Shown here: positions 9,146 through 38,611 of the stretch, one piece after another
Numbering within the stretch: position 1 is the first letter of the stretch
Layout: the number at the start of each line of letters is the position of its first letter
From: Cytophaga hutchinsonii ATCC 33406
Lineage (GTDB): Bacteria > Bacteroidota > Bacteroidia > Cytophagales > Cytophagaceae
Direction of reading: 5' to 3'
NCBI RefSeq assembly: GCF_000014145.1
Contig: NC_008255.1
Span: forward strand, 621,501-685,500
Length of the DNA: 64,000 nucleotides
Notes under the pieces: generated by a model
Told to the model about the DNA's origin: nothing
Databases searched by the model: none
The model's input: the letters and a program-made list of their open reading frames with translations, nothing else
Program-made: the position numbers and the translations under genes

Positions 9146-12100
9146 ATGAAAAAACCAGACAAATTATTGAATACAAAGTTATGGATCGCATTGTTATTTA
9201 TTACGGGAATTCAATGGGCGGCATATTCGCAAACAACATTAAAAGGTATTGTTACAGATGAAATTACAAAAGAAACAATTATAGGTGCAATTGTTCAGGT
9301 GAAAGGTACCAGTGTTGGTACTGCTACCGACGTGGATGGTTATTATGAAGTACGGGTAGATTCATTTCCATGTAAAATTGTTGTCTCATACATTGGTTAT
9401 GTTACCAGGCAGATAGATGTGAACGCTGCTGCTACAGAGCTTAACATCACATTAACATTGAAAACCGACGAATCAGAAATTGTTATTGTTGGTTATGATA
9501 CGCAGCGCAAGGAAGATGTTGTTGGATCAATTGTGAAGATTGATCCGGAAGAAACAAAAAATATTCCGGTTGCGAGTTTTGATGCACAGCTGCAGGGTAA
9601 AGCTGCCGGGGTGCAGGTGAACTCGCAGAACGGTATTCCCGGAGATGCAGTAGTAGTGCGTATTCGTGGAGCATCAACCATTAATGCAAGTGCGGATCCG
9701 CTATACATTATTGATGGGGTTTTTATCAATAATGAAAGTATGTCGACCGTTGATCTTGGCGGTAAAGCTACATCTCCGTTAGCAGATATAAACCCTGCGG
9801 ATATTGAAAATATTGAAGTGCTGAAAGATGCCAGCGCCACTGCAATCTATGGTTCAAGGGGTGCTAATGGTGTTGTGATTGTTACTACCAAAAGAGGTAA
9901 TTATGAACAGAAACCAACATTAACATTTACTACAACGCAGGGTGCAGCCTGGGCGGATAAAAGCAGATTGTGGAAACAGACTACCGGCCCTGAACATGCG
10001 ACACTTGTAAACGAAGCATGGATCAATTCTGGTGTTGACAATCCATCCTTAAATCAGAATTATGCCAACAGACCGTTCAGGCCTGTAAGCGAAGGAGGAC
10101 GCGGTAATCCGGAAGACCAGCAGACATATGACCGTATCAGTGATTTATTCCGTACGGGTTATTTACAGCAATATGACCTGGGCTTACAAGGCGGCGGTAA
10201 AAACAATAAATATTATTTCGGTGCAAGCTATAATAAGCAGGAAGCAAATATTCGTCCGGTGTTTTATGAGCGTGCAAGTTTTAAAGCAAATATTGATTCA
10301 AAAATCAGTGAACGTATTTCGTTTGGTGTAAGTAATACGTTATCGTATTCGTTCAGAAACCAGACACGTGCAGGTACCGGAACCGGTACAGGTATTTTTC
10401 AGTCTGCCTTACACACACCAACGTATCAGCCAAAAAACAATCCTGATGGGACACCGTCAAGACAATCTCCTTTTGACAATCTCGATATTTTATTAAGTGA
10501 TGTATTTATCCGAACAGCGAGTTTACGTTATATAGGCAATAGCTACGCGACATTTGATTTATTGAAAAATAAGGATCTTAAATTCAGAACAAGCTTCAGT
10601 TTAGATTATAACCTGTATGATGAATCTGAATACAATACGTCAAGAACGCTGAAAGGAGCCGCTACAAGAGGCTTTGGCCTGTCTAACATTTCTCAGAATA
10701 CAACCTGGATCAATGAACAGACAATTACATACCGTAAGTCTATTCGCAACAAACACACCCTTGGTGTATTGGTAGGTAATACCTTACAGAGTAATACACT
10801 TAAAGGAACCTATACAACCGGTACCGGTTTCCCAAACAATACCTATACACAGATTTCATCTGCCAGTGTGCGGAACGCAAATCAGGAGTGGACAAAGTCA
10901 ACGCTTGCTTCCTTTTTCTCCCGTGTAGATTACAACTACAAACATAAGTATTATGTAGAGGCTTCTATACGTGCCGATGGTTCTTCTAAGTTTGGTGAAA
11001 ACAACCGTTGGGGATATTTTCCTTCAGTAGGCGCATCCTGGAGAATTAAGCAGGAAAACTTTATGCAGAATGTTAAACCTGTATCGGATCTTAAAGTCAG
11101 AACAAGTTATGGTATTCTGGGAAATCAGAATGGGATCAACAACTTTGCTGCACAAGGTTTATGGACAGGTGGTGCAAACTATCCGAATACACCGGGAACA
11201 GCAGATCAGCCGGGAACAACGCCCCTTCAGTTAGCAAATAAAAATCTGCGTTGGGAAAAAACACAGCAGCTGGATTTTGGTATTGATATAGCATTCTTTA
11301 ATAACCGCATTGCGTTAACGACTGATTTTTATTACAAGCGTACAACAGATCTTCTGTTACCAACACAGGTTCCTGCAACAACCGGATTTACCACATACCT
11401 GACAAACTCTGGCGAGATCAGTAACAAAGGGATAGAGATTGCTATTCAAACACAGAATATCAAATCGAAAAAATTCTCCTGGAACACAAGCTTCAACTTT
11501 ACACGCAATGTAAACAAAGTTGAAAAGCTTGAAAACCCATACGTGTACGGATCAAGAGATATGGTGCGTAACGAAGAAGGATACGCATTGTATTCTTTCT
11601 GGATGTACAATCAATTATATGTTGACAAACAAACCGGACAGGCAGTGTTTGAAGATGTTAACGGAGATGGACAAATCACGGTTGCGGATAGAAAAATTAT
11701 GGGTAATGCTAATCCTAAATTCTTTGGAGGTCTTACAAACACATTTAAATATGCAGGTTTTGATCTGAATGTTTTCTTCGTATATCAATATGGAAATAAG
11801 GTTGTAAGCTTTGACCGTATCCTCAATGAAGGTGGCGGTACAAAAGATAATAACAGAGGTATTTTTGAATACAACATGAACAGATGGCAGAAACCTGGTG
11901 ATGATACAGATGTGCCAAGAGTTACAAGTGTAGGGAACAATTATGGTATTGAACAGAACAGCCGGTTCCTGGAAGACGGATCATTCATACGCTTAAAAAC
12001 ATTGACACTTGGCTATACAGTACCGGTAGACTTTACTAAAAAATATTCCGTGCAGAGTGTACGCTTCTTTGTTACAGGGACCAACTTATTATTATTCACG

Positions 12101-12220
12101 AAATATAAAGGTCCGGATCCGGAAGCTGTACATACCTCAGAACAGAATGCACGCGGCATTGATGTGGGTACACCTCCGCAACCTGTATCTGTACAAGGCG
12201 GATTAACAATAACTCTTTAA
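9146..12220 (+). CDS. susC: SusC/RagA-family TonB-dependent outer-membrane transporter (copy 1)
   Basis: A 1024-residue outer-membrane importer. It has a signal peptide (about 1-28), a carboxypeptidase-regulatory-like beta domain (about 31-115, TLKGIVTDEITKETIIGAIV), then a plug with the SusC signature (VVRIRGASTINASADPLYII, then DGVFINN) and DIENIEVLKDASATAIYGSR. The remainder is a 22-stranded-type barrel with conserved segments such as RADGSSKFGENNRWGYFPS and GDGQITVADRKIMGN. The SusD partner starts 18 bp downstream. No polysaccharide-degrading enzyme is nearby; the genes that follow encode DoxX-like membrane proteins and sulfur-type redox enzymes, so the ligand is probably not a glycan. 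The second copy at 21620 has a near-parallel sequence. Confidence 0.95.
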   Translation: MKKPDKLLNTKLWIALLFITGIQWAAYSQTTLKGIVTDEITKETIIGAIVQVKGTSVGTATDVDGYYEVRVDSFPCKIVVSYIGYVTRQIDVNAAATELNITLTLKTDESEIVIVGYDTQRKEDVVGSIVKIDPEETKNIPVASFDAQLQGKAAGVQVNSQNGIPGDAVVVRIRGASTINASADPLYIIDGVFINNESMSTVDLGGKATSPLADINPADIENIEVLKDASATAIYGSRGANGVVIVTTKRGNYEQKPTLTFTTTQGAAWADKSRLWKQTTGPEHATLVNEAWINSGVDNPSLNQNYANRPFRPVSEGGRGNPEDQQTYDRISDLFRTGYLQQYDLGLQGGGKNNKYYFGASYNKQEANIRPVFYERASFKANIDSKISERISFGVSNTLSYSFRNQTRAGTGTGTGIFQSALHTPTYQPKNNPDGTPSRQSPFDNLDILLSDVFIRTASLRYIGNSYATFDLLKNKDLKFRTSFSLDYNLYDESEYNTSRTLKGAATRGFGLSNISQNTTWINEQTITYRKSIRNKHTLGVLVGNTLQSNTLKGTYTTGTGFPNNTYTQISSASVRNANQEWTKSTLASFFSRVDYNYKHKYYVEASIRADGSSKFGENNRWGYFPSVGASWRIKQENFMQNVKPVSDLKVRTSYGILGNQNGINNFAAQGLWTGGANYPNTPGTADQPGTTPLQLANKNLRWEKTQQLDFGIDIAFFNNRIALTTDFYYKRTTDLLLPTQVPATTGFTTYLTNSGEISNKGIEIAIQTQNIKSKKFSWNTSFNFTRNVNKVEKLENPYVYGSRDMVRNEEGYALYSFWMYNQLYVDKQTGQAVFEDVNGDGQITVADRKIMGNANPKFFGGLTNTFKYAGFDLNVFFVYQYGNKVVSFDRILNEGGGTKDNNRGIFEYNMNRWQKPGDDTDVPRVTSVGNNYGIEQNSRFLEDGSFIRLKTLTLGYTVPVDFTKKYSVQSVRFFVTGTNLLLFTKYKGPDPEAVHTSEQNARGIDVGTPPQPVSVQGGLTITL

Positions 12221-12238
12221 TTTATCATAGTTAATAAT

Positions 12239-13579
12239 ATGAATTATATATTTAAAATATCAGCCTTATTGCTATTGCTGTCGCTGCTTTCCTGCAAGAA
12301 ATTTCTTGAAGTGGAACCGAAAGATGCGGTATCGGATCAAATAACAATTGTAGATAAGCTGTCTGCAGAAACCGCGCTTAACGGTGCATACAGAGCGCTT
12401 GCCAGCGATGCGTATTACGGACAGAAATTTCAGTTTGTAAATTATCTGCGGGGAGGAGACCTTGGATGGGGAGATTCACGTACGGTAAACCGTGAATTTA
12501 TTCAGAATAATGTGCGTGCTGATAACGAAGAAGTAAACAATGTGTGGGTGGCAATTTATAAAACCATCAACCTTACAAACCACGTTCTTGCTCGTGTACC
12601 GGAGATAAATGATATTACAATGACGCAGGCAGACAGGAACAGAATATTAGGCGAAGCATATTTTATCCGTGCGCTCTGTTATTTTGATCTTGCAAGAACA
12701 TGGGGCGGTGTGCCATTGATTGTTAAGCCAAGTATAAATGCAGACGATACAAAAGGTATTACCAGAAGCAGTGTGTTTGATGTATATAATTATGTAGAAA
12801 AAGATCTGGAACAGGCAGAATTATTATTACCTGACGGAACAAATCGAATACGTGCAACTAAAAAAACGGTATGGGCATTGAAAGCGCGTTTCCATGCATA
12901 CAGAAGTCAGTGGGGCTTAGCTGAATCATATGCAACGAATGTGATCAATGATGCTGCAAACTATACATTGGTAAAACCGTTTGGCGCCTGGTTTCAGGCA
13001 AACGTGGTTGGTTCAAAAGAATCTATTTTAGAAACTGCTTACAGTTCTGTACTTACCAATACACACCGTAACTCCTGGCTGCCGCCTGAACGCGGAGGTA
13101 TCAGAAGCTGGTTCCCGGTAGATTCATTTGTTACACCAATGAATGACCCTACTATCGGCGGCACCAGAAAAGTTCTTATTGCTAAAGCATCAACAAATTT
13201 ATGGTATGGGCAGTTGTATTACCGCTCTCCTGCAACAGATCCGTCTTACATACTTCGTGTAGCTGAAATCTATTTGTTACGTGCAGAAGCGCGCGCTGAA
13301 CAGGAGAATTACACCGGTGCATCGGATGATATTAATGCTGTAAGAGATCGTGCAGATTTACCTGCTATTGCAGTTACTACAAAAGAAGAAGCAATCTTAG
13401 CGATAGAGAAAGAGATACGGTTTGAGTTTTTTGCAGAACCGCACCGTTTCTTTTATTTGGTACGTAAAGATTTGCTGGATGATAAACTGAATATCACAGA
13501 TCCCAATAAAAACCTGTTACCTATACCAAATCCGCAGATTGTGGTAGATCATTCACTCGCACAAAATCCCGGATATTAA
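12239..13579 (+). CDS. susD: SusD/RagB-family outer-membrane lipoprotein (copy 1)
   Basis: Surface lipoprotein that caps the SusC transporter and captures the ligand. It has a lipoprotein signal with Cys19 (LLSCKKFLEVEPKD) and 446 residues. Family hallmarks include the N-terminal AETALNGAYRAL, the TPR-like GEAYFIRALCYFDLARTWGGVPL, and the C-terminal YILRVAEIYLLRAEARAEQ and EIRFEFFAEPHRFFYLVRKD (in many SusD proteins ERR.EF..EGHR..DL.R). The ending LPIPNPQIVVDH...QNPGY is also typical. It is 18 bp behind its susC and 39 bp ahead of the interrupted DoxX-like gene. Fairly short for SusD, like copy 2. Confidence 0.94.
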   Translation: MNYIFKISALLLLLSLLSCKKFLEVEPKDAVSDQITIVDKLSAETALNGAYRALASDAYYGQKFQFVNYLRGGDLGWGDSRTVNREFIQNNVRADNEEVNNVWVAIYKTINLTNHVLARVPEINDITMTQADRNRILGEAYFIRALCYFDLARTWGGVPLIVKPSINADDTKGITRSSVFDVYNYVEKDLEQAELLLPDGTNRIRATKKTVWALKARFHAYRSQWGLAESYATNVINDAANYTLVKPFGAWFQANVVGSKESILETAYSSVLTNTHRNSWLPPERGGIRSWFPVDSFVTPMNDPTIGGTRKVLIAKASTNLWYGQLYYRSPATDPSYILRVAEIYLLRAEARAEQENYTGASDDINAVRDRADLPAIAVTTKEEAILAIEKEIRFEFFAEPHRFFYLVRKDLLDDKLNITDPNKNLLPIPNPQIVVDHSLAQNPGY

Positions 13580-15004: not shown

Positions 15005-16633
15005 ATGTCAACAAATCAGTATACAGGAACTTCTTATTCAGAGGAGGCCGCAACGCTGGAAGGAGTAAGGCCTGCCGCTAAAACCGCACATACATCAGGT
15101 GAATGGAGTTTATTTAAAAAAATCTCATTTAGAATTGCTTTCCCATTCTTTCTGATGATGTGCATTCCGCTGACAGGCGAATGGTACAAACATCTTATCG
15201 GTATTGACTGGACAAACCTGCATTACCGGGATATATATGATATCTGCAGATTCCCGACGTTTTCGTTTATTGAAGTAAGTCCGCAGGCCAGATGGGGGAT
15301 TGGCGGTTATGCAAACTGGGGCGTAACCTTTTTAGTTGCAGTAGCAATTGGCCTGGTATGGACTGTTGTGGATAAAAAAAGAAAAGAGTATGATGTGCTG
15401 AATTACTGGCTGCGTGTTATCATTCGCTACCGTGCAGCACTTGGCATTATTGGTTTTGGTTTTACAAAATTGCTGCCTGTTCAGATGCCGTATCCATCAC
15501 AGGCATTATTAAACGGAGACTTTGGTGATTTTACCGAACAGAAAATTTATTGGATGTCGATCGGTATTGTACCGTGGTACCAGATTTTTACCGGGATTGT
15601 TGAAGTGGGTGCAGGTACGTTATTGTTGTTCCGGAAAACTACTTCGTGGGGTGCAGCATTGCTTGTCGGTACATTAGGTACCATTGTAGTGGTAAACCTC
15701 GCGTATGATGGCGGTGTACATGTATACTCGTCCTTCTTTGTATTACTGGGTGTATACCTGTTGATTACCGATGTTAAAAATGCCGTTGATCTGCTGGTAT
15801 TTGAAAAATTTGTTGTTCCCGTGAAACGTTACTACCCTTTATTTACAGAAGGCTGGCAGAAATACGGACGCATTTTTGTAAAATCTGCAATCGTATTCAT
15901 TTTCATATTTGTATTCTTTTATTATCAGTTATTAAACTTTCTGTATGATCCTTATAAACAGCCATCTTTAAAAGGTGTAAAAGAATTAAGAGGAAATTAT
16001 ACCGTAACGGAATTCAGACTGAACAATAAAATAATTCCATATTCTCCCTTTGATACACAACGCTGGCAGGAGGCTACATTTGAAAAATGGACAACGCTAA
16101 CATATAAAGTCAATAAACCTGTACAGATAGATTTGTCAAACGGAGGCGGCGATCCGATGAAAGATATCAGCCGTACATTTGAAGTGTCTGGTGTTGGTGG
16201 CGGGAGAAGAACGTTTTATTACGATGCAGATACTAAAAATCACATGTTGTATCTGCAGGATAAAAACATTCCAACCCTTCCGAGGAATGTAGGACCTGGT
16301 GGGATCGCAGACCGTAAAAAGCGCGAATCTGCTAAAGACAGCATTTATCCTGAAAACTGGATCTCTACGGCATCACTTGCAAACATTGGGGACAATGCAT
16401 TAAAATTAAATCCCAAAGTAGTGAATACCCGTCGTATTGAAGCGTATAAAACTGAAAAGGAAATCAAAACCAGAAAGAAAATGGTTTTGAATTACACGGT
16501 ATTGAATGATGGTGCCCGGGTAATTTTAACAGGCACAGATGAGAACAGAGATTCTATTTATGTAGTGCTTGATAAAGTAAAGAGAGATTACATCGTTTCT
16601 GAAAGTTCATTGAAAGCGGGCGTATATGAATAG
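15005..16633 (+). CDS. DoxX-like multi-pass membrane protein with C-terminal domain of unknown function (paralogue A2)
   Basis: A 542-residue integral membrane protein. Predicted helices lie near 41-57, 101-122, 133-155, 180-207, 212-233, 238-255 and 289-310. Residues 139-258 resemble DoxX/DoxD (IIRYRAALGIIGFGFTKLLP, GIVEVGAGTLLLFRKTTSWG), the membrane subunits of thiosulfate:quinone oxidoreductase-type proteins. Residues about 325-540 form a soluble domain I cannot assign, marked by LRGNYTVTEFRLNNKIIPYS, RWQEATFEKWTTL, GVGGGRRTFYYDADT and ILTGTDENRDSIYVVLDK. Its stop overlaps the next start by 8 bases (ATGAATAG). The DoxX assignment is by pattern; catalysis is unproven. Confidence 0.72.
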   Translation: MSTNQYTGTSYSEEAATLEGVRPAAKTAHTSGEWSLFKKISFRIAFPFFLMMCIPLTGEWYKHLIGIDWTNLHYRDIYDICRFPTFSFIEVSPQARWGIGGYANWGVTFLVAVAIGLVWTVVDKKRKEYDVLNYWLRVIIRYRAALGIIGFGFTKLLPVQMPYPSQALLNGDFGDFTEQKIYWMSIGIVPWYQIFTGIVEVGAGTLLLFRKTTSWGAALLVGTLGTIVVVNLAYDGGVHVYSSFFVLLGVYLLITDVKNAVDLLVFEKFVVPVKRYYPLFTEGWQKYGRIFVKSAIVFIFIFVFFYYQLLNFLYDPYKQPSLKGVKELRGNYTVTEFRLNNKIIPYSPFDTQRWQEATFEKWTTLTYKVNKPVQIDLSNGGGDPMKDISRTFEVSGVGGGRRTFYYDADTKNHMLYLQDKNIPTLPRNVGPGGIADRKKRESAKDSIYPENWISTASLANIGDNALKLNPKVVNTRRIEAYKTEKEIKTRKKMVLNYTVLNDGARVILTGTDENRDSIYVVLDKVKRDYIVSESSLKAGVYE

Positions 16634-18197
16634 TACGGAGTTAACGCATGAAATAGATTCAACTGAAACTGTTCAACGACAATCCGAATGGAGCCGGAAT
16701 CAGAAATTCTGGTTTCGTGTCGCATTCATTTTCTTTACTGTGATCGCTATTCCTACGAGTGCGAAATGGTATACATTCATTTATAATTTAAATTGGTTAA
16801 ATCTTCATTGTCGGGATCTGTATAATCTTACAAATTATACACCCGACTTTGTGGAATTAAAAAACAGATATGGTTTTGCGGGGTTCGCATCCTGGGGTGT
16901 CTTATTTATTGTCTCGGTCATTGGTTCATTCATATGGGGTCTGGTAGATGCGAAAAGAAAAAACTATGATGTTTTATATTACTGGTTGCGTGTCATTGTA
17001 CGGTATAGAGCAGCACTTGGTATCATTGGTTTTGGTTTTCTGAAATTGTTTCCGGCACAAATGCCCTATCCTTCTTTAGGAATATTGAATGGAGACTTTG
17101 GCGATATGACACAACAAAAAGTGTATTGGATGTCTGTTGCGATCGTTCCGTTTTATCAGGCATTCAGCGGTGTGCTGGAAGTATCGGCAGGTGTGCTGTT
17201 ATTGTTTCGTAAAACAATTCCCTGGGGCAGTGCCTTATTGTTTTCCGCATTAGGTACCATTGCTGTTGTGAATGTTACCTATGACAATACCCTGCATGTG
17301 TATGCAACGTATTTTGCAGTGGCAAGTGCTTTCCTGTTGCTTCATGATCTTAAAAAATCGAAAGAACTTCTCATTGATGAAATAGCTGTAGTCCCTTATA
17401 AATATTATTATCCGGCATTTGCAAAAGCCTGGCAAAAGTATGCACGTATCGGTTTAAAGTCTGGGTTGATTTTACTGTTTGTTGTATGGGCATTTTACCT
17501 GGAAGGAATTAATTTTTTATATGATCCGTATAAACAGCCGGCAGTTAAAGGAGTAAAAGAACTGCGCGGAAATTACGATGTGGCTGAATTCAGAATTAAT
17601 AACAAGGTGATTCCCTATGCGCCTTTGGATAGTGTACGCTGGAGTGAAGTGACATTTGAAAAATGGACATCCTTATCTTTTAAAGTCAACAAACCTGTAC
17701 AGATTGATTTGTCTAACGGTGGCGGAAGCCCTGCGATGGATATTCACCGGACTACAGAAGTTGCCGGACTGGCAGGTGGGAGAAGGGTATTTTACTATCA
17801 GGCAGATACCGTTAAACAGATTCTTTATTTACAGGATAAAAATATAGCCGGTATTAAAGCCGGTGATTTAAATGAACGCAGGGTGCCGGATAAAATTTTA
17901 AAAGACAGCATTTATCCCGCAGATTGGATTCCAAAAGAATCACTTGCTGCAATCGGAAATGAGTTGTATAAAATAAATCCGAAGGCAATGTCAACTACCC
18001 GTATCCGGGAATATGAGGCAGGCGATAAATTTAAAAACCGGAATAAAATGATTTTGCATTACCAGATCATTGATGGCGGAACGCAGGTTATTCTATCGGG
18101 TACAAATGAAAAAAGAGATTCTGTATACATCGTGCTGAATAGAATCAACAGAAGATATACATTAACGCCAAGCAAGCTTGATGCAGGTGTATATTGA
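16626..18197 (+). CDS. DoxX-like membrane protein with C-terminal domain (paralogue A3)
   Basis: A 523-residue close relative of the preceding gene. The DoxX-like core is at about 126-242 (VRYRAALGIIGFGFLKLFPA, then VLEVSAGVLLLFRKTIPWGS). A final helix at about 277-295 leads into the unassigned domain from about 312 (LRGNYDVAEFRINNKVIPYA, RWSEVTFEKWTSL, GLAGGRRVFYYQADT). It has the long-form insertion containing IYPADWIPKESLAAIGNE, which the short paralogues lack. The N-terminal signature WLNLHCRDLYNL is shared with its neighbours. Start overlaps the upstream stop, indicating translational coupling. No heme or flavin motif is visible, so any cofactor (quinone is the family precedent) is inferred. 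Confidence 0.72.
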   Translation: MNSTELTHEIDSTETVQRQSEWSRNQKFWFRVAFIFFTVIAIPTSAKWYTFIYNLNWLNLHCRDLYNLTNYTPDFVELKNRYGFAGFASWGVLFIVSVIGSFIWGLVDAKRKNYDVLYYWLRVIVRYRAALGIIGFGFLKLFPAQMPYPSLGILNGDFGDMTQQKVYWMSVAIVPFYQAFSGVLEVSAGVLLLFRKTIPWGSALLFSALGTIAVVNVTYDNTLHVYATYFAVASAFLLLHDLKKSKELLIDEIAVVPYKYYYPAFAKAWQKYARIGLKSGLILLFVVWAFYLEGINFLYDPYKQPAVKGVKELRGNYDVAEFRINNKVIPYAPLDSVRWSEVTFEKWTSLSFKVNKPVQIDLSNGGGSPAMDIHRTTEVAGLAGGRRVFYYQADTVKQILYLQDKNIAGIKAGDLNERRVPDKILKDSIYPADWIPKESLAAIGNELYKINPKAMSTTRIREYEAGDKFKNRNKMILHYQIIDGGTQVILSGTNEKRDSVYIVLNRINRRYTLTPSKLDAGVY

Positions 18198-18232
18198 AAA
18201 TAAAATTATTCCTTTTGAAAAATAAAAATCTA

Positions 18233-30517: not shown

Positions 30518-30535
30518 TTCATTAAACAACCCGAT

Positions 30536-31939
30536 ATGACACCAATAACTACTTTTGAAAAAGAACCTAAACAGGAACAGGAAATAACTGCTGTGCCATG
30601 GAAAGGATATGAGAAGTTTGCCTTCCGTTCAACGTTTGCCTTTGTTGCATTGATCTGTTTGCCATTCAGCACACACTTCTATGAAAATCTGCTTCGGTTA
30701 AACTTGACTGAATTCAACTGGAATAGCCTGGGGAGCATTGCAACAGGTTTTGGCGCGCCTGAATTTATTACGCTTGAACCTGCAGATATCTGGGAACTGT
30801 ACAGTTATATCAATGTTTTTATAACCGCTGGGCTGGCTGTTTTAATTGGTGCTGTGTGGTCACTGCTGGATCATAAAGCAACGCAATACCGCGCTTTGTA
30901 TTACTGGACACTTGTTGTTGCGAGGTATCGGCTGGCCTTTGGTATAATTGCCTGGGGGTATAAAAAATTTATTCCCATCCAGATGGAATTGCCCAGCATC
31001 AGTTTTTTATATACTCCTTTTGCTGATTTCAGCGAACAGAAATTATACTGGCAATCCGTGGGAATTACACAAGGGTATGAAATTTTTTTAGGGTTTGCAG
31101 AAGTGTTGTGCGGATTGTTGCTGCTGTTCAGAAAGACAACTGCTATTGGTGCTGCTTTAACAGCCGTTATCCTCTTCAATATTGTAATTGCAAATCACGT
31201 ATACGATGGTATGGTGCATGTGCACAGTTTTATATTTGCGGTGCTTGCGGTAATTATTTTGTGGCAGTATTTACCCGGTATCTGGAACTTGCTGGTTAAT
31301 GAACGCGATGTAAAACCTGCTTACACCCGATTGGATTTCAGCTCAACATCCTGGAAAAGAAATACACGTTTGGCCTTAAAGTCTGTTAGTATTGGCATTT
31401 TCGTTTTCTTTCTTTTGTTTCTGCATGCTATAGATGACCTGGGTTACAGGTATCCGCATAACCATCCGGGTTTAAAAAATACAGCTGGTTTTTATCATGT
31501 AACAGAATATAGGCGCAACAATAAAGTAATACCGTATTCGCCACTGGACTCGGTACGTTGGCACGATGTGGTTTTTGAAACCTGGTCAACTATGGCAATC
31601 AGGATGAACCGTTTGCAGCAGATGGATAATGATAATACCGGAAGAGAAAATAAAGAAAGTATCAGCAAGCGATTTGAATTCAGAGGCGTTGGCGGCGGAC
31701 GGCATTATTTTGACTATAAAGCAGACACTATTAAACACATTTTGTATTTAACCAATAAAAATAAAGCACACCGTGACCAGCAGCAGGTACTGCATTACAG
31801 CAAACCAACAGATACGAGGATTATAGTATCAGGCATAAATGAATTCAACGATTCTATTTATGTAATACTGGATAAAGCCGAACACACATATCCTTTATAT
31901 GAGGGACGTGAACAAGCAGTTTCATCAGCCTCTTATTGA
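30536..31939 (+). CDS. DoxX-like membrane protein with C-terminal domain (paralogue B4)
   Basis: A 467-residue paralogue and the last of the nine-member set. The N-terminus carries WKGYEKFAFRSTFAF; the core has ARYRLAFGIIAWGYKKFIPI, GITQGYEIFLGFAEVLCGLL and LLFRKTTAIGAALTAVI. The C-terminal domain has TAGFYHVTEYRRNNKVIPYS, RWHDVVFETWSTMAI, GVGGGRHYFDYKADTIKHIL and SGINEFNDSIYVILDKAE. It lacks the long insertion of A2-A5. It is followed after 49 bp by a c-type cytochrome gene on the same strand with no terminator between them. That arrangement links the DoxX-like array to the redox genes downstream. Confidence 0.72.
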   Translation: MTPITTFEKEPKQEQEITAVPWKGYEKFAFRSTFAFVALICLPFSTHFYENLLRLNLTEFNWNSLGSIATGFGAPEFITLEPADIWELYSYINVFITAGLAVLIGAVWSLLDHKATQYRALYYWTLVVARYRLAFGIIAWGYKKFIPIQMELPSISFLYTPFADFSEQKLYWQSVGITQGYEIFLGFAEVLCGLLLLFRKTTAIGAALTAVILFNIVIANHVYDGMVHVHSFIFAVLAVIILWQYLPGIWNLLVNERDVKPAYTRLDFSSTSWKRNTRLALKSVSIGIFVFFLLFLHAIDDLGYRYPHNHPGLKNTAGFYHVTEYRRNNKVIPYSPLDSVRWHDVVFETWSTMAIRMNRLQQMDNDNTGRENKESISKRFEFRGVGGGRHYFDYKADTIKHILYLTNKNKAHRDQQQVLHYSKPTDTRIIVSGINEFNDSIYVILDKAEHTYPLYEGREQAVSSASY

Positions 31940-31988: not shown

Positions 31989-32354
31989 ATGAATAAATTA
32001 CTCATGCTCGCACTGGCGGCAGCAACAATTGTTATCAGTTATGCACAGAATGCGCCGGGTACAGCACAGAAAGGTGCAGTTACTGTAAATCCCAAAGATG
32101 TTGAAGCAGGCAAAGCATTGGTTGCACAGTCTGATTGTAAAACATGTCACGTATCAGACTATACGCTTATCGGCCCGGGATATAAACAGATTGCTCAGCG
32201 TTATCCGCTTACGGAAACAAACATTCAATACCTTTCAAAAAAAATAATTTCAGGCGGAGGTGGTGTATGGGGTGAAAATGAAATGGCTGCGCATACAACA
32301 CTTACACCTGAACAAACCAGAAAAATTGCACTTTACATCTTATCATTAAAATGA
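31989..32354 (+). CDS. Exported c-type cytochrome, class I
   Basis: A 121-residue periplasmic monoheme electron carrier. It has a signal peptide (about 1-19, ending SYAQ), one CKTCH heme-binding site (Cys50, Cys53, His54) and a probable axial Met99 in GENEMAAH. The fold resembles the cytochrome c551/c552 group (KALVAQSDCKTCH, IGPGYKQIAQRY, ALYILSLK). Its stop overlaps the start of the next cytochrome gene by four bases (ATGA). It is a natural electron acceptor for the SoxC-like dehydrogenase encoded two genes later. Confidence 0.93.
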   Translation: MNKLLMLALAAATIVISYAQNAPGTAQKGAVTVNPKDVEAGKALVAQSDCKTCHVSDYTLIGPGYKQIAQRYPLTETNIQYLSKKIISGGGGVWGENEMAAHTTLTPEQTRKIALYILSLK

Positions 32355-32980
32355 AACAATTGACCTGGCCGTTCTGTATATGCTTCACAATGTTTTTAAC
32401 AGCAGGTTCAATTACAGCATGTAATAAAAAAATACATACCTGGGTTGCTGCTGAAGATACGCTTAACAAAACTACTGGAATTGAAAAAACAGCAGCTGTA
32501 TTTCCGGATACCTTTGGTTTCGGCCAGTCTGTATCAACTGAATATATTCGAAAATTTGATATCGATGTACGTCCGGATGGAAGAGGGTTACCTGCCGGTG
32601 CAGGTATGGTGAAAGAAGGCCGGAGCATCTATCTGGAAAAATGTACCGTGTGTCATGGGAAGACAGGCAGAGAAGGAGGGCCTGGCGGAAAACTTGTTTC
32701 ATCACCGCCTGATTCAAACAAAACAAAAACAATCGGTAACTATTGGCCATATGCAACAACTGTGTACGATTATATAAACCGTGCAATGCCGTACAATGCG
32801 CCCGGTTCACTCACCAGCAAGGAAGTATATGACCTTACTGCTTATTTGCTGTATGAGAATGGTATCATTGATTCTGTATTTGTTGTCACAGAAAAAACAT
32901 TACCACTGATTGAAATGCCGGCGAAAAAATTATTTGTTCCGGATAACAGGTTAGATGAAATAAAATCCGGCAGCAGATGA
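32351..32980 (+). CDS. c-type cytochrome lipoprotein, SoxD/SorB-like subunit
   Basis: A 209-residue monoheme cytochrome anchored as a lipoprotein (probable lipid Cys24, SITAC). The heme site is CTVCH (Cys98-His102) and Met146 is a likely axial ligand (YINRAMPYNAPGSLTSKEVY). The motif around that Met and the following LTAYLLYENGIID are typical of cytochromes that accept electrons from sulfite or sulfane dehydrogenases. It overlaps its upstream and downstream neighbours by four bases each, so the three genes should be translated together. I infer that it pairs directly with the molybdenum enzyme downstream. Confidence 0.86.
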   Translation: MKQLTWPFCICFTMFLTAGSITACNKKIHTWVAAEDTLNKTTGIEKTAAVFPDTFGFGQSVSTEYIRKFDIDVRPDGRGLPAGAGMVKEGRSIYLEKCTVCHGKTGREGGPGGKLVSSPPDSNKTKTIGNYWPYATTVYDYINRAMPYNAPGSLTSKEVYDLTAYLLYENGIIDSVFVVTEKTLPLIEMPAKKLFVPDNRLDEIKSGSR

Positions 32981-34221
32981 AAGATCATGCTAAAAAAGAA
33001 GATACCGGCTTGAGCCGTCGATCCTTACTGGCTATGGCTGGTTTGGCAACCGTTGCATTTGTCCAGACTTCGCTTGGTAAAACAGTGCAGATGCTGCAGC
33101 CGCCGGCAATGTTTTTATCTGATGATCCTACTAAAAGCATTGGTGCTCCTCCGGGTTTAGTTGGCAATCGTTCTGCGTATGAAAATCCTGTTAAAAAAAC
33201 ATCCGACACATCTTCCAGAACACCACTGCAGGATCTGTACGGAACCATTACTCCTTCTGATCTGCACTTTGAACGGCACCACGCAGGTATGCCGGATATC
33301 AATCCGGAAGCATATGAATTAATCATTCATGGAATGGTTGACAAACCTAAGAAATTTTCGCTGCAGGATCTGAAGCGGTTTCCATCCGTATCACGCATTT
33401 GCTTTCTGGAATGTTCGGGGAACTACCGCACAGGAAAGGAAACGATGACCGCTCAGGAGATCTGCGGCATGACCAGCCAAAGCGAATGGACAGGAGTAAT
33501 GCTTTCTACGCTGTTGCGTGAAGTCGGTATTCGGGATACGGCACAATGGCTGCTTGCAGAAGGCGGGGATGCTGCTGTAATGACGCGCAGCATTCCGGTA
33601 ACAAAAGCATTGGACGATGCCATGATTGTGTACGCACAGAATGGAGAAGCCTTACGTCCGCAGCAGGGATATCCGGTGCGCCTGTTATTGCCGGGCTGGG
33701 AAGGGAATACAAATATAAAATGGCTTCGGCGCATTGAAGTTTCGGACGCTCCGTTTATGACACGCGAAGAAACATCTAAATATACCGAAACAATAAAAGG
33801 CGGATTTTACCGGCAGTTCAGTTTCGATATGGATGCACGTTCCATCATCACATTTCCTTCGTATCCCAGACAGGTCGAAAAAGGCTGGATCGAAATTCAG
33901 GGAATTGCGTGGACAGGAAGAGGTAAGGTATTGCGGGTAGATATAACAACAGATGCAGGTAAAACATGGCTGCCTGCGCAGCTGCAGGAACCTGTTCTGG
34001 ATAAGGCACACGTGCGGTTCCGTTTTTTATGGAACTGGAACGGAGATGAAACAGAAATTGCAAGCCGTGTAACCGATGAAACAGGATATCAGCAGCCATT
34101 CTTAAAACAGTTGCTGGAAGCAAGAGGAGGCGTGTCTGGTGGATACCATTTTAATCCGGTAACATTCTGGCGGGTAAAAAAAGATGGTTTAGTGGTACTC
34201 AATCCGGATGCCATGAAATAG
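32977..34221 (+). CDS. soxC: Molybdopterin-dependent sulfite/sulfane dehydrogenase, SoxC-like
   Basis: A 414-residue periplasmic sulfite-oxidase-family enzyme. A twin-arginine signal is present (LSRRSLLAMAGLATVAF). The molybdenum ligand is Cys146 in CFLECSGNYRTGKE, and SQSEWTGVMLSTLL is characteristic of the SoxC branch. The C-terminal Mo-co dimerisation domain is recognisable (GKVLRVDITTDAGKTWLPAQ). It should oxidise sulfite to sulfate, or sulfane sulfur in a Sox complex, passing electrons to the cytochromes just upstream. No soxX, Y, Z, A or B gene is present in the window, so a stand-alone sulfite dehydrogenase is the simpler reading. Its start overlaps the preceding stop (ATGA). Confidence 0.88.
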   Translation: MKDHAKKEDTGLSRRSLLAMAGLATVAFVQTSLGKTVQMLQPPAMFLSDDPTKSIGAPPGLVGNRSAYENPVKKTSDTSSRTPLQDLYGTITPSDLHFERHHAGMPDINPEAYELIIHGMVDKPKKFSLQDLKRFPSVSRICFLECSGNYRTGKETMTAQEICGMTSQSEWTGVMLSTLLREVGIRDTAQWLLAEGGDAAVMTRSIPVTKALDDAMIVYAQNGEALRPQQGYPVRLLLPGWEGNTNIKWLRRIEVSDAPFMTREETSKYTETIKGGFYRQFSFDMDARSIITFPSYPRQVEKGWIEIQGIAWTGRGKVLRVDITTDAGKTWLPAQLQEPVLDKAHVRFRFLWNWNGDETEIASRVTDETGYQQPFLKQLLEARGGVSGGYHFNPVTFWRVKKDGLVVLNPDAMK

Positions 34222-34260: not shown

Positions 34261-35691
34261 ATGAGTAATATATATGATGCAGTAGTTGTCGGATCCGGCC
34301 CCAACGGTCTGGCAGCAGCCATTACACTCCAACGGAAAGGATTTGCTGTGTTGGTGCTGGAAGCAAAAGATACCATCGGCGGTGGTTTACGTACGAAAGA
34401 GCTCACGTTACCTGGGTTTAAGCACGACGTGTGTTCTGCTATACATCCGATGGCAGTTGCTTCTCCGTTCTTTGCGGATATACCGCTGGATAAATTCGGG
34501 TTGCGGTTTACACATGCGCCTATTGCTGCGGCACATCCCTTTGATCATGGCGGAGCAGCCATTCTTTCGCGTTCGCTAAAAGATACAATCGCGTTGCTGG
34601 GTAAAGATGCAGATAATTACAAACGGTTAATAGAGCCTGTTATAGAAAGCTGGCCCGATATTGCTGCAGACGCTATGGGGCCGTTACGGTTTCCCAAACA
34701 TCCGTTGAAGATGGCCGCGTTTGGATTAAATGCGATCCGCTCTGCAGATTGTATATCCAAACGCTTCGAAACCGAAGAAGCAAAAGGGTTGTGGGCAGGC
34801 ATGGCAGCACATTCCATACAACCGTTGACCAATTGGGCTTCGGCTGCAATCGGTTTGGTACTTTCTGCGGTTGGCCATTTGCATGGCTGGCCAATACCTA
34901 TCGGCGGTTCACAGGCTATTGCAGATGCATTGGGTTCGTATTTTATTTCACTTGGTGGTACCATTCAGACAAATGTTGAAGTGACTTCTCTCAATCAGCT
35001 GCCGGCAGCCAGGGCTGTACTGTTTGATGTTACTCCCAAACAACTATTGAAAATTACCGGCGATGAATTCTCCGGTTTGTATAAAAAACAACTAACGAAT
35101 TACCGTTACGGTATGGGCGTGTTTAAAGTAGACTGGGCACTCAGCGAACCTGTTCCGTTTACATCCGATCATTGCAGGCAGGCAGGTACCGTGCATCTTG
35201 GCAATACATTCAACGAAATTGCCTTGAGTGAACAGGAGACATCTTCCGGTAAACATCCGGAAAAACCATTTGTGTTATTTGCGCAGCAAAGCAAATTTGA
35301 TATAACGCGTGCCCCCCAGGGTAAGCATACTGCCTGGGCATATTGCCACGTACCTAATGGTTCCGCAACAGATATGACAGCTGCGATTGAAAATCAGCTT
35401 GAACGTTTTGCACCGGGATTTAAAGATACTATTCTGGCAAAAAATACCATGAACACCGTAGAGATACAGGCATACAATCCCAATTATATTGGCGGTGATA
35501 TCAATGGCGGTATCATTGACATTCGTCAGTTGTATACACGGCCCGCAGTGAAAATTTCACCTTACAGAACACCTAAGAAAGGTATTTATATATGTTCATC
35601 TTCTACACCTCCCGGTGGCGGTGTACACGGTATGTGCGGCTTTCATGCTGCGCAGGCTGTTATACAGGATCTTAAAAAACAATACAAGTAG
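34261..35691 (+). CDS. FAD-dependent oxidoreductase, phytoene desaturase/PYROXD2-like
   Basis: A 476-residue flavoprotein. The N-terminal dinucleotide-binding motif is clear (YDAVVVGSGPNGLAAAITLQ), followed by the acidic end of strand 2 (VLVLEAKDTIGGGLRT). The C-terminus has the usual FAD-closing segment (GIYICSSSTPPGGGVHGMCG). It belongs to the broad CrtI/PYROXD2 group. No other carotenoid genes are adjacent, so pigment biosynthesis is not supported by context. It sits between the SoxC-like enzyme (39 bp) and a YeiH-type transporter (8 bp), probably in the same transcript, but its substrate is unknown. Confidence 0.85.
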   Translation: MSNIYDAVVVGSGPNGLAAAITLQRKGFAVLVLEAKDTIGGGLRTKELTLPGFKHDVCSAIHPMAVASPFFADIPLDKFGLRFTHAPIAAAHPFDHGGAAILSRSLKDTIALLGKDADNYKRLIEPVIESWPDIAADAMGPLRFPKHPLKMAAFGLNAIRSADCISKRFETEEAKGLWAGMAAHSIQPLTNWASAAIGLVLSAVGHLHGWPIPIGGSQAIADALGSYFISLGGTIQTNVEVTSLNQLPAARAVLFDVTPKQLLKITGDEFSGLYKKQLTNYRYGMGVFKVDWALSEPVPFTSDHCRQAGTVHLGNTFNEIALSEQETSSGKHPEKPFVLFAQQSKFDITRAPQGKHTAWAYCHVPNGSATDMTAAIENQLERFAPGFKDTILAKNTMNTVEIQAYNPNYIGGDINGGIIDIRQLYTRPAVKISPYRTPKKGIYICSSSTPPGGGVHGMCGFHAAQAVIQDLKKQYK

Positions 35692-35699
35692 AATAAAAT

Positions 35700-36965
35700 A
35701 TGTCAGCGTTTAAAAAACAAGCCATTGCCTTACACGAAGATTGGGTAGTAGTAATTTTAGGATTTATCATTATTGCTGCAGCGCTCTTTACTATTGTACC
35801 CGTTCCGCCTGCTTATTCCTGGGAAAATATAAACCAGTTAACAGATACTATTCTGACCGCTGAAAACCTATATAAAATAGGTATTCAGTTTATTTTCGTT
35901 TTTGTGGCAGCAGCCATCGGATATTTTCTCAACAACAAACCATTAAAATTATTTCTTACTGTTGTATTTCCGGTGTTGTATGTACTTACAATTATTGCGC
36001 TGATTATTTCAGGATATAAGGGTATGAAAGATCTGGGGCTGGAAGCCGTTATATTCAGCCTTTCCATCGGCCTGCTTATACGTAACCTCATTGGAATACC
36101 TGAATGGTTCCGCTCGTTATTGAACGGCGAAGTATTTGTTAAAATCGGTTTGGTGCTGTTGGGTACCACCGTTATTTTCAGAGATATTTTAAAAGCCGGT
36201 TCGCTTGGTTTGATACAGGCATTGCTGGTAGTGGTAAGCGTTTGGTATTTTGCCTACTGGCTGTGCCGCAAACTTAAAATTGATGATGAACTTACCATGA
36301 TGATCTCCAGTGCTGTTTCTATCTGTGGTGTTTCGGCTGCTATTGCTACAGCAGGTGCGATTAAAGGAGATACAAAAAAACTTTCTTATGTAATCTCCCT
36401 GGTATTGGTAACTGCCATTCCCATGATGATTTTTATGCCCATCATTGCCAGGTATCTTGGGTTGTCGCAGGAAGAAACCGGCGCTTGGCTCGGCGGTACG
36501 ATTGATACAACCGGCGCTGTTGTTGCTTCTGGATCATTAGTTGGAGAAGTTGCATTGAAGATCAGTACGATTGTTAAGTTCTCACAGAATGTATTGCTCG
36601 GCGCAGCGGCATTTGCCATTAGTATTTACTGGACCTATAACAAAAAAGCCGTTGCCGGACAACATGTTGAAAAACCTACACTGCGCTTAATCTGGGAACG
36701 TTTCCCTAAATTTGTTTTGGGTTTTGTTGCTGCATCTCTGTTGTTTTCTTTTGTGCTTTCTGCTGATAAAATTGCTGAAGTAAAAGACGGATTGAAAAAT
36801 ATTCAACTGCTTTGGTTTGTACTCGCATTTACAAGTATTGGTCTTGAAACTAAATTCTCAGATATGTTTAATCAGCAAAGCAAAAAACCATTGATCGCTT
36901 TTCTGGTTGCCCAGGGATTCAACATTGTTGTTACGCTCATCATAGCCGTTTTATTATTTAATTAA
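35700..36965 (+). CDS. YeiH/UPF0324-family putative sulfate exporter
   Basis: A 421-residue integral membrane protein with about ten helices. Family marks are IRNLIGIPEWFRSLLNGEVF, SAVSICGVSAAIATAGAIKG and the highly conserved GTIDTTGAVVASGSLVGE followed by KISTIVKFSQNVLLG. Members are annotated as putative sulfate exporters, but to my knowledge transport has little direct proof. Its position, three genes after a sulfite-oxidising enzyme, supports removal of sulfate or another sulfur oxyanion. It starts 8 bp after the flavoprotein gene and ends 12 bp before the YceI gene. Confidence 0.9.
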   Translation: MSAFKKQAIALHEDWVVVILGFIIIAAALFTIVPVPPAYSWENINQLTDTILTAENLYKIGIQFIFVFVAAAIGYFLNNKPLKLFLTVVFPVLYVLTIIALIISGYKGMKDLGLEAVIFSLSIGLLIRNLIGIPEWFRSLLNGEVFVKIGLVLLGTTVIFRDILKAGSLGLIQALLVVVSVWYFAYWLCRKLKIDDELTMMISSAVSICGVSAAIATAGAIKGDTKKLSYVISLVLVTAIPMMIFMPIIARYLGLSQEETGAWLGGTIDTTGAVVASGSLVGEVALKISTIVKFSQNVLLGAAAFAISIYWTYNKKAVAGQHVEKPTLRLIWERFPKFVLGFVAASLLFSFVLSADKIAEVKDGLKNIQLLWFVLAFTSIGLETKFSDMFNQQSKKPLIAFLVAQGFNIVVTLIIAVLLFN

Positions 36966-36977
36966 TCAACTGTATTT

Positions 36978-37541
36978 ATGAAAAAAATCATCGTATGTAT
37001 TTTTGCCTTATTGAGCGTGTCAGCCATACAGGCACAGAATTGGTCGCTGGACAAATCGCATTCAAAACTAACGTTTACCATTGTTCACTTAGGAATTTCT
37101 GAACAGGAAGGGAATTTTAAAAATTTCTCTATTACACTTACTTCCTCCAAAGAAGATTTTTCAGATGCGGTTATTGCACTTACTGCAGACGTTACTTCAA
37201 TAGATACCGACAATACCACGCGTGACGAGCACTTAAAGGGCGCTAATTATTTTGATGCTGCTGTTTATCCATCACTAACTTTCAAAAGTAAATCATTTAC
37301 AAAGACAACCGGAAATAAATATAAATTAACCGGAGACCTCACGATAAGAAATGTTACTAAAACGGTTGATCTGGAAGTTACCTATATCGGATCAACGATC
37401 AATCAAAAAACACAAAAAAAGGTTGCAGGATTTAAACTGACAGGTGTAATAAACCGCATTGATTTTGGTGTAGGAAAATCAAGCACTACCTTAAGTGATG
37501 ATGTAACAATCACCGCTAATATAGAAGTTATTAAAGATTAA
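36978..37541 (+). CDS. YceI-family periplasmic protein
   Basis: A 187-residue exported protein with a signal peptide (about 1-20) and the YceI beta-barrel pattern: NWSLDKSHSKLTFTIVHLGI at the start of the mature part, TSIDTDNTTRDEHLKGANYF in the middle, and LTIRNVTKTVDLEVTY. Family members bind isoprenoid or quinone-like lipids in a lipocalin-type barrel. That would suit a supporting role for the membrane DoxX-like proteins and the cytochromes upstream, which is inference. It is 12 bp from the upstream gene and 23 bp from the peroxiredoxin gene. Confidence 0.93.
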   Translation: MKKIIVCIFALLSVSAIQAQNWSLDKSHSKLTFTIVHLGISEQEGNFKNFSITLTSSKEDFSDAVIALTADVTSIDTDNTTRDEHLKGANYFDAAVYPSLTFKSKSFTKTTGNKYKLTGDLTIRNVTKTVDLEVTYIGSTINQKTQKKVAGFKLTGVINRIDFGVGKSSTTLSDDVTITANIEVIKD

Positions 37542-37564
37542 CATAGCCGATAAATAATAGCAAT

Positions 37565-38080
37565 ATGCGGAAATTAGTTCTTATCTGTACACTGTTGTTT
37601 TTTATAAGCAGCAGTGTATATGCGCAAACACAACTGAAAGCGGGTGATAAAGCACCGGCATTTTCAGCAAAAGATCAGAATGGAAAAATTGTTTCGTTGA
37701 CAAGTTTCAAAGGCAGGAAATTAGTTTTATATTTTTACCCAAAAGACAATACACCCGGATGCACAAAAGAAGCATGTAACCTGAGAGATTACAAGGATAC
37801 GCTGGCGGCACAGGGCTACACGATTCTTGGTGTGAGTACAGACGATGCGTTTTCTCATCAGCAATTTATCAAACAATACAACCTGCCGTATGATCTGCTT
37901 GTTGATTCTGATGCAGCAATTAATAAAGCATATGGTGTGTGGGTACAAAAGGAACGGGAGGGGAAAGTATTTTATGGCACAGCCCGGACTACATTTATTA
38001 TTAATGAATCAGGAGTCATCACAAAAGTGATTGATGCCGTGAAGGTCGATGCACACGCCGAACAGATTTTGACGAAATAA
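37565..38080 (+). CDS. Exported Bcp/PrxQ-type peroxiredoxin
   Basis: A 171-residue thiol peroxidase. The mature part has the PrxQ signature FYPKDNTPGCTKEACNLRDY with peroxidatic Cys66 and resolving Cys71 five residues later, then the conserved LPYDLLVDSDAAINKAYGVW. Unlike the usual cytoplasmic Bcp it carries a clear signal peptide (about 1-20, ending VYAQ). It should therefore detoxify peroxides in the periplasm, alongside the cytochromes and the SoxC-like enzyme. It closes the run of closely spaced genes; the next gene has its own promoter-like element. Confidence 0.92.
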   Translation: MRKLVLICTLLFFISSSVYAQTQLKAGDKAPAFSAKDQNGKIVSLTSFKGRKLVLYFYPKDNTPGCTKEACNLRDYKDTLAAQGYTILGVSTDDAFSHQQFIKQYNLPYDLLVDSDAAINKAYGVWVQKEREGKVFYGTARTTFIINESGVITKVIDAVKVDAHAEQILTK

Positions 38081-38125
38081 AAAATGGTTTTTAAAAATTG
38101 CCAGGCTACGCTCTCATTAGTCCGG

Positions 38126-38133
38126 TAAATTTG
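38126..38133 (+). promoter_or_regulatory. Putative -7 promoter element of the small DoxX gene
   Basis: TAAATTTG matches the Bacteroidota TAnnTTTG consensus exactly and lies 40 bp before the ATG at 38174. A TTG at 38098-38100 is a possible -33 element with a slightly long spacer of 25 bases. Confidence 0.5.
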
Positions 38134-38173
38134 TTAAATAAGAACAGTACTAGAGATATAAATAAAAATTATT

Positions 38174-38611
38174 ATGCTTCGACGAGTCATTCATACGGAT
38201 AACGATAAGCAAACGATCATCATCCGTTTCCTTGTTGGCTGTGTATTTTTATCTGAAGGCATTCAAAAAATCTTATTTGCCAAAACACTTGGCAGCGGGC
38301 GTTTTGAAACAATCGGCTTGCCTGCGCCGGAAATTTTAGGACCGTTTGTAGCTATGGTTGAAATCTGCGGTGGATTTTTACTGCTCATTGGATTGTTTAC
38401 CCGACTGGTATGTGTTCCATTGATTGTAGTCATCCTGGCAGCAATTGCAACAACTAAGTCGGTTATTTATGTTGAAAAAGGTTTTTGGGAATTGCTTCAT
38501 AACAGCAGAACAGACTGGGCTATGCTGTTAGGCTGCATGTTCCTTTTCATAAAAGGGAGTGGTTTTTATTCGGTAGATTATACCTATAATAAAATAAAAA
38601 GCTACGCTTGA
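38174..38611 (+). CDS. DoxX-family membrane protein (small form)
   Basis: A 145-residue four-helix membrane protein of ordinary DoxX size. It has the family pattern IIRFLVGCVFLSEGIQKILF, then GLPAPEILGPFVAMVEICGG and FLLLIGLFTRLVCVPLIVV. Unlike the nine large paralogues it has no C-terminal soluble domain. The last codons and TGA lie inside a hairpin (38601-38628) shared with the convergent transcription unit. DoxX proteins are linked to thiosulfate oxidation in archaea and to thiol/redox stress complexes in actinobacteria; the role here is not known. Confidence 0.88.
   Translation: MLRRVIHTDNDKQTIIIRFLVGCVFLSEGIQKILFAKTLGSGRFETIGLPAPEILGPFVAMVEICGGFLLLIGLFTRLVCVPLIVVILAAIATTKSVIYVEKGFWELLHNSRTDWAMLLGCMFLFIKGSGFYSVDYTYNKIKSYA

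Follow-up and report, generated by a model that had tools for sequence, protein, structure and literature searches.

SusCD pairs are usually read as importers of glycans or peptides, and the question raised here is what such pairs import when they stand ahead of arrays of paralogous membrane proteins that run on into redox genes linked to sulfur. The locus belongs to the soil bacterium Cytophaga hutchinsonii (ATCC 33406) and lies in a stretch of 64,000 nucleotides, bases 621501-685500 of a genome of 4,433,218 bp in one contig, which we call the window. Open reading frame (ORF) calls fill window positions 9146-38611 with 21 genes, all on the + strand, in the order susC1, susD1, p1-p5, susC2, susD2, q1-q4 (p and q being the nine paralogues), cytochrome c 1, cytochrome c 2, a SoxC-like molybdenum (Mo) enzyme, a flavin adenine dinucleotide (FAD) flavoprotein, a YeiH transporter, YceI, a peroxiredoxin and a small DoxX protein. 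Intergenic gaps range from -8 to 93 bp, with the sole exception of 343 bp ahead of susC2. Families above their Pfam cut-offs are SusC, SusD, cytochrome c, Oxidored_molyb/Mo-co_dimer, flavoprotein, Cons_hypoth698 (YeiH), YceI and AhpC-TSA; a plug-bearing TonB-dependent receptor adjoins a SusD-family protein, as expected of a SusCD pair, and the only two SusD genes of the genome are both in the block. The layout given in a preliminary description of this DNA, with susC, susD and five paralogues, susC, susD and four more, then redox genes on the same strand, is therefore confirmed by the ORFs and their Pfam families. The block consists of two arrays, p1-p5 (type I) and q1-q4 (type II), in tandem with one redox tail, putatively as a single transcript. 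With somewhat better than even confidence, we propose that it represents a Bacteroidota SusCD-based sulfur-utilisation locus, in which a sulfur compound supplied by SusCD would be broken down by way of sulfite. The observations beneath this proposal are the gene order, the two subtypes, the family assignments and the association of SoxC with type I.

The recurrence of these genes in other genomes carries most of the argument. Contigs were scanned for clade A relatives (142) of the paralogues, and the best 80, ranked by likeness to one window protein and drawn from public genomes that are nearly all Bacteroidota, were fetched; L099 was dropped because its A ORF was lost, leaving 79 loci, 71 of them with more than 6 kb upstream and more than 8 kb downstream. 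Their ORFs were called mechanically at 90 or more amino acids (aa) and named by best BLASTP match to window proteins at E 1e-8, a threshold that misses distant relatives such as the redoxin-family ORFs in L088 and L089, and loci within one genus are non-independent (L113 and L114 are 99% alike). The recurrent order, within a single run of same-strand genes or directon, is susC-susD-A-B-[cyt2-SoxC]-FAD-[YeiH], the bracketed genes being absent from some loci. The 71 directons contain susC and susD in 70 cases each and B in every case; the flavoprotein occurs in 51 of them, YeiH in 41, cytochrome 2 in 32 and SoxC in 28. The genes of susC-susD-A-B lie about 20 bp apart, the main core pairs are separated by median gaps of 6-36 bp, cytochrome 2 is directly followed by SoxC 31 times across the 79 directons, and median identity to the window is 66-68% for the flavoprotein, YeiH and SoxC. 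Order downstream of B varies, the flavoprotein and YeiH standing ahead of cytochrome 2 and SoxC in L081, L106 and L112. Since the same genes recur elsewhere, the SusCD-paralogue block and the SoxC/flavoprotein/YeiH genes form a recurrent unit, and the co-occurrence anticipated by the preliminary description is found. That the arrays and the SoxC/flavoprotein/YeiH genes are unrelated adjoining operons might be argued from two same-genus genomes in which the A/B family has no match at E 1e-10, as if the pieces could assemble separately; however, SoxC shares a directon with susC-susD-A-B in loci of 13 named genera, and the recurrence of the gene set refutes a chance neighbourhood, which we hold to be very improbable. 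The A/B family is matched at 1e-10 in 22 of 118 relative genomes, mostly by distant matches, with strong full-length copies in six (own genome counted) and fragments in a seventh. As one A with one B is usual (a single B in 60 of the 71 loci, elsewhere at most three), the seven B genes of C. hutchinsonii are an unusual expansion.

The recurrent loci fall into two subtypes, and C. hutchinsonii has an array of each. In a quick tree of 156 rows, one fully supported branch splits clade A (70) from clade B (86), with p1 and q1 in A and the other seven window paralogues in B. Genes p2-p5 lie inside a 47-row B group with Spirosoma, Runella, Niastella and other loci (type I), and p1 pairs with the A protein of Chitinophaga costaii. 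On the type II side, q1 groups with the A of Pedobacter-type loci, q2 with their second B and q3 with their first; the partner of q4 is bacterium A37T11. When subtypes were assigned by best BLASTP of B instead of by tree, SoxC was present in 31 of 51 type I loci, none of 26 type II loci and neither of two mixed loci (type I versus type II, Fisher 2.4e-8, kinship ignored). Genomes of 38 of the 48 loci whose directon lacks SoxC were examined for the gene elsewhere; 14 match at 1e-20, 13 of them strongly. By coordinates, and assuming the same contigs, SoxC stands just past the locus end in L085, L086, L102 and L128, and in the genomes of L064 and L067 it falls in a second locus (L096 and L091), so that 31 of 51 is to be read as a minimum for type I. 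Sphingobacterium corticibacterium (L070) likewise has both kinds of block in tandem, type II ahead of type I. The window's shared tail may be composite, because its flavoprotein groups with four type II rows (99/98); in an unfinished YeiH tree the row nearest the window is type I, and no supported group contains the window.

The window Mo enzyme is a SoxC equivalog (TIGR04555, 478.3 bits against an NCBIfam cut-off of 420), and its nearest solved structure is the sulfite dehydrogenase 2xts (E 1.6e-105), SoxCD of Paracoccus; the best sulfite oxidase is matched at E 1.3e-37. Residue C146 is invariant in 21 of 21 aligned rows and aligns with a cysteine of 2xts, presumably the Mo ligand. TIGR04555 is exceeded in only four of the 118 relatives, in all four inside the locus by coordinates (Fisher 4.6e-6, or 7.7e-5 without the own genome, with seven genomes counted as locus-bearing), and in a class-wide sample (n=295) in the own genome only. 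The preliminary description had made SoxC the central element; it is better seen as an addition found in one subtype, outnumbered in related loci by the flavoprotein and by YeiH.

The identity of the paralogues is a separate matter. The nine match one another with best BLASTP pieces of 30-59% identity at E 6e-64 or lower, and the genome holds no tenth at E 10. One of them, p1, has its ATG at 13619 and an in-frame TAA at codon 46 (13754-13756), with a shortened ORF open from 13787, so that the gene is broken unless the assembly contains a sequencing error at this point. By averaged hydropathy, A is predicted to have seven hydrophobic segments and B six, followed by a soluble C-terminal part. 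They were previously described as DoxX-like membrane proteins, but the corresponding profile search corrects this, since none of the nine reaches the Pfam cut-offs of DoxX, DoxD or MauE. The best DoxX (PF07681) scores are 16.1 bits for q4 and 15.8 for p2 against a cut-off of 23.6 (E near 0.02), and the other seven lack a match at E 0.1; for DoxD, PF04173 is without a match in all nine and NF041179 in p2, q1 and q4. Homologues behave alike: DoxX is matched at E 0.1 in one of 55 A and three of 55 B proteins (best E 0.01), and the best E values for DoxX, DoxX_2 or MauE among the 55 A and 55 B are 0.0044-0.037. Plain DoxX membership is thus ruled out by the cut-offs, for window members and homologues. 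Comparison of profiles by hhalign (172 A/B rows against 17 DoxX) nevertheless aligned 90 columns with a probability of 78.6% and a single-comparison E of 1.7e-5, while the control profiles HTTM and YeiH gave 1.0% and 0.24%; comparisons with a single window DoxX sequence were uninformative (3.4% and 1.5%). Because profiles match yet no Pfam cut-off is reached, a DoxX-derived A/B core is likely but not proven. The HTTM probability also rules out kinship with HTTM/vitamin-K-dependent carboxylases. A search of solved structures returned none for A at E 10 and for B nothing better than E 0.22, and p1 gave a sub-cut-off match to GH43_C, a lipocalin-like domain (18.3 against 23.4 bits). A and B are best described as a two-clade membrane protein family without a Pfam model over cut-off.

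This partial resemblance bears on the idea, to which the wording of the preliminary description points, that A/B are DoxD/DoxA-type thiosulfate:quinone oxidoreductases that pass electrons to quinone, with SoxC oxidising the products. The profile match and the nearby sulfur genes are what one would predict from it; however, the DoxX and DoxD cut-offs are unreached by all nine, homologues score no better than quoted above, DoxX proteins have many other functions, and thiosulfate alone would hardly need SusCD. We regard a quinone oxidoreductase role as improbable.

Sulfur genes other than SoxC accompany the arrays in a few related directons, which favours the sulfur-utilisation proposal. Pfam coverage of unnamed directon ORFs was partial, comprising 25 related-locus proteins and five from distant loci. 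A metallo-beta-lactamase-rhodanese protein occurs in the directon of Mucilaginibacter L114, and L113 has a truncated copy; a CDO_I protein and a four-rhodanese protein occur in the directons of Solitalea L089 and bacterium A37T11 (L068), the CDO_I match of L089 being marginal (23.2 bits, cut-off 23); and Na:sulfate-type symporters lie in the directons of L126 and L089 and near the locus in L099. In the accessible part of a study of Cupriavidus, loss of SoxCD is relieved by a persulfide dioxygenase (PMC9959259), which fits the alternation among loci between SoxC and persulfide-dioxygenase-rhodanese proteins and, by analogy, hints at sulfane sulfur. The flavoprotein is the commonest redox partner of related loci. 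For YeiH, PMC12880088 reports that Salmonella depends on yeiH to resist sulfite and calls it the main driver of this resistance. Beside the rhodanese-type genes we also observed proteins of 256-289 aa that carry a C-G-C motif and, by eye, a signal sequence (L089 18518-19288, L114 12746-13615, L113 7330-8196); the two that were scanned have no Pfam match, and a sulfur carrier is possible.

Several observations weigh against a sulfur-utilisation role. The flavoprotein falls far below every listed NCBIfam equivalog cut-off, YeiH is below the TIGR00698 subfamily cut-off (78.4 against 232.6 bits), and sulfite transport by YeiH is not proven in PMC12880088, as far as its accessible part goes. SoxY (PF13501) and SoxZ (PF08770) have no match in the genome at E 1; SoxC is therefore without the standard Sox carrier here, and its partner must differ. 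Weaker SoxC-like genes match at 1e-20 in 16 of the 118 relatives, the sub-cut-off ones outside the locus, and strong A copies occur in only three of the 295 class-wide genomes, so that this sample says little on association. In type II, YeiH is present in 20 of 26 loci with no other sulfur gene seen among the partly scanned ORFs, and 13 of the 71 directons lack the flavoprotein, SoxC and YeiH altogether. Exported S51 peptidases (14 of 71 loci) and DUF1684 proteins (10 of 71) would also fit a peptide or glycan substrate, as would the GH2 enzyme just downstream of two scanned loci, Niastella L108 and L117.

These last genes, with an amino-acid permease in L082/L116 and the 13 loci without the flavoprotein, SoxC and YeiH, are what would be expected of an ordinary SusCD peptide/glycan locus in which SoxC, YeiH and the flavoprotein only clear by-product sulfite or reactive sulfur. 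Against such an ordinary locus, Pfam finds neither carbohydrate-active enzyme (CAZyme) nor peptidase families among the window directon proteins, which do not qualify as a polysaccharide utilisation locus, and the flavoprotein, YeiH and SoxC (51, 41 and 28 of 71) are more constant partners, spaced from a few bases to some tens apart. We consider an ordinary locus unlikely, although S51, DUF1684, the permease and GH2 keep a substrate linked to peptide or glycan in play. The earlier remark that no CAZyme is nearby holds for the window directon but not for the two related loci with GH2 just downstream. A role in cellulose use is reported not to apply: according to PMC12016534, the two obvious homologues of SusC/SusD in C. 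hutchinsonii take no part in using cellulose, in agreement with the two SusD genes found here and with the dispensability on cellulose assumed in the preliminary description. The source cited for this, via PMC12016534 and PMC6247017 in the parts available, is Zhu et al. 2015.

The end of the block is less constant than its core. No close relatives of cytochrome 1, YceI, the peroxiredoxin and the small DoxX protein came up among the 79 related directons (BLASTP 1e-8), and these four genes, formerly counted as parts of the system, are better left out of it. The small DoxX gene (38174-38611) is the sole directon gene with DoxX over cut-off, and PF04173 is marginal there (23.2 against 22.7 bits). 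YceI, peroxiredoxin and this DoxX protein (45.6 of 80 bits with the HvfX model) at the end of the directon, sub-cut-off MauE matches among A/B, and an RND efflux set and ECF/LTXXQ module upstream would suit metal or cofactor acquisition or redox stress, with SusCD importing a metallophore or cofactor and A/B resembling MauE or HvfX maturation proteins. The failure to find close relatives of the three terminal genes in the 79 directons counts against such a function, to which we give only a slim chance.

The sulfur-utilisation proposal can be put as a sequence of steps. SusC and SusD, from their families, would carry a sulfur-containing compound over the outer membrane, and paired A and B proteins in the inner membrane may receive or first process it. 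Its sulfur would be converted to sulfite in the cytoplasm, probably with participation of the flavoprotein or, in some other lineages, of a persulfide-dioxygenase-rhodanese-like or CDO-like enzyme instead. YeiH would export the sulfite, if its published sulfite-resistance role applies, and in type I a SoxC-type enzyme with cytochrome c could oxidise sulfite or sulfane sulfur in the periplasm, electrons passing to respiration. A more specific version, which we put forward tentatively and think short of probable, is a dedicated two-subtype SusCD system importing organosulfur or sulfane sulfur (polysulfide, polythionate, persulfidated thiol or a lipid-like compound), with an A/B complex as a new DoxX-derived family, interchangeable modules (SoxC-cytochrome c, persulfide dioxygenase-rhodanese or CDO-like-rhodanese) and YeiH as exporter. 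The uptake and oxidation of sulfur suggested in the preliminary description is supported by the recurrent unit and by the other sulfur genes of a few related directons, but its DoxX membership and the centrality of SoxC are not supported.

If correct, sulfur compounds would join the likely substrates of SusCD, and common Bacteroidota (Pedobacter, Mucilaginibacter, Spirosoma, Runella, Niastella, Chitinophaga) would have a heterotrophic route of sulfur oxidation. The C. hutchinsonii SusC/SusD homologues, uninvolved in cellulose use according to the available part of PMC12016534, would gain a testable role. In the open-licence literature searched, we found no description of such a SusCD-A/B locus, no paper joining DoxX with SusC and SusD, and none on CHU_0546, 0547, 0553, 0554, 0555 or 0561. 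Coordinates of the window features are collected below.

Table. Genes of the Cytophaga hutchinsonii block and the stem at its end, in window coordinates.
Feature	Position	Strand	Basis
SusC-like TonB-dependent transporter 1, type I array	9146..12220	+	Pfam Plug, CarbopepD_reg_2 above cut-off
SusD-like lipoprotein 1	12239..13579	+	Pfam SusD-like_3, SusD_RagB above cut-off
p1, clade A, in-frame TAA	13619..14968 (open ORF only from 13787)	+	BLASTP, tree
p2, clade B type I	15005..16633	+	BLASTP, tree; DoxX 15.8 bits, cut-off 23.6
p3, clade B type I, sister of p2 (97)	16626..18197	+	BLASTP, tree
p4, clade B type I, sister of p5 (99)	18194..19738	+	BLASTP, tree
p5, clade B type I	19750..21276	+	BLASTP, tree
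SusC-like transporter 2, type II array	21620..24679	+	Pfam TonB_dep_Rec_b-barrel, Plug; 52% identity to susC1
SusD-like lipoprotein 2	24699..26075	+	Pfam; 44% identity to susD1
q1, clade A type II, with Pedobacter-type loci	26112..27440	+	BLASTP, tree; no Pfam match at E 0.1
q2, clade B type II, with second B of Pedobacter-type loci (100)	27488..29035	+	Tree
q3, clade B type II, with first B of Pedobacter-type loci (100)	29054..30517	+	Tree
q4, clade B type II, with B of bacterium A37T11 (100)	30536..31939	+	Tree; DoxX 16.1 bits, cut-off 23.6
Cytochrome c 1, one CxxCH, signal peptide by eye	31989..32354	+	Pfam Cytochrom_C
Cytochrome c 2, one CxxCH, lipoprotein-like signal by eye	32351..32980	+	Pfam Cytochrome_CBB3, Cytochrom_C
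SoxC-type Mo enzyme, RR signal by eye	32977..34221	+	TIGR04555 478.3 bits, cut-off 420
CrtO/phytoene-desaturase-like FAD protein, by eye without signal peptide	34261..35691	+	Pfam; model and BLASTP comparisons; tree
YeiH-type (Cons_hypoth698) membrane transporter, candidate sulfite exporter	35700..36965	+	PF03601 165.6 bits, cut-off 24.5; PMC12880088 (accessible part)
YceI	36978..37541	+	Pfam
Exported peroxiredoxin	37565..38080	+	Pfam AhpC-TSA
Small genuine DoxX protein	38174..38611	+	Pfam DoxX 58.5 bits, cut-off 23.6
Putative terminator-like stem, 12 pairs, between directon end and convergent TauE-type gene	38599..38630	- (as reported)	Consensus match only

The surroundings of the block are unremarkable in composition, its G+C content (0.39-0.44) being like that of the flanks (0.36-0.43), with no sign of recent insertion. 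A Bacteroidota promoter pattern has one match, inside p2, where 5.4 are expected by chance, and matches in an E. coli-type promoter scan are at chance level. Upstream of susC1, positions 37-8882 hold an RND efflux set (HlyD, AcrB, OEP), DUF6428, an ECF sigma factor, a 105-aa ORF and an LTXXQ-family protein, which together look like a separate envelope- or metal-stress module. The flanking TauE-type gene has only 43% identity to its match in same-genus genomes and adjoins a small zinc-ribbon protein (39738-40175), a 52% relative of which lies near YeiH in L038 (7109-7618). A further arrangement recurs in seven related loci of type I (L080, L084, L085, L086, L100, L102, L128), in which B is followed by another SusCD pair and a DUF1684 protein is present; six of these loci encode a TPR protein of some 580 aa, and five have cytochrome 2. 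The contig of L117, binned as Williamsia (Actinomycetota), bears a Bacteroidota-type locus and is probably mis-binned. Distant A/B relatives (L044-L052, E about 1e-35 to 1e-60) lack the locus, and their neighbours include PA14/DUF1501/DUF1800 (L046), PAD_porph (L048) and GHL10 (L044).

The locus can be compared with several known systems. With DoxX, DoxD (TQO) and MauE proteins, A/B may share a four-helix core and an E-x-x-G/A-G-x-L-L-like motif in the profile alignment, but they have extra N-terminal segments, a C-terminal soluble part, two adjoining clades and scores below cut-off. The HTTM/vitamin-K-dependent carboxylase family is comparable in that the carboxylases have several transmembrane segments and then a soluble domain, but its profile probability against A/B is 1.0%. 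The Sox thiosulfate-oxidising system resembles the type I tail in that a SoxC equivalog, with SoxCD-like 2xts as nearest structure, adjoins a cytochrome c gene. SoxD is diheme, whereas window cytochrome 2 has one CxxCH by eye, and here SoxY and SoxZ are absent from the genome and SusCD with A/B are attached. The SorAB/SorT sulfite dehydrogenases together with sulfonate-degradation export (TauE/SuyZ-type) also combine a Mo enzyme of the sulfite-oxidase family with cytochrome c and a putative sulfite/sulfate exporter, but the SorA and SorT models score the window SoxC at 131 and 130 bits against cut-offs of 600 and 570, and the scanned window directon proteins include no known desulfonating enzyme. 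Finally, the locus shares with a SusCD polysaccharide utilisation locus the order of susC then susD on the same strand, with membrane and catabolic genes after them, but where the latter would have CAZymes the window has the A/B membrane pair and redox genes linked to sulfite.

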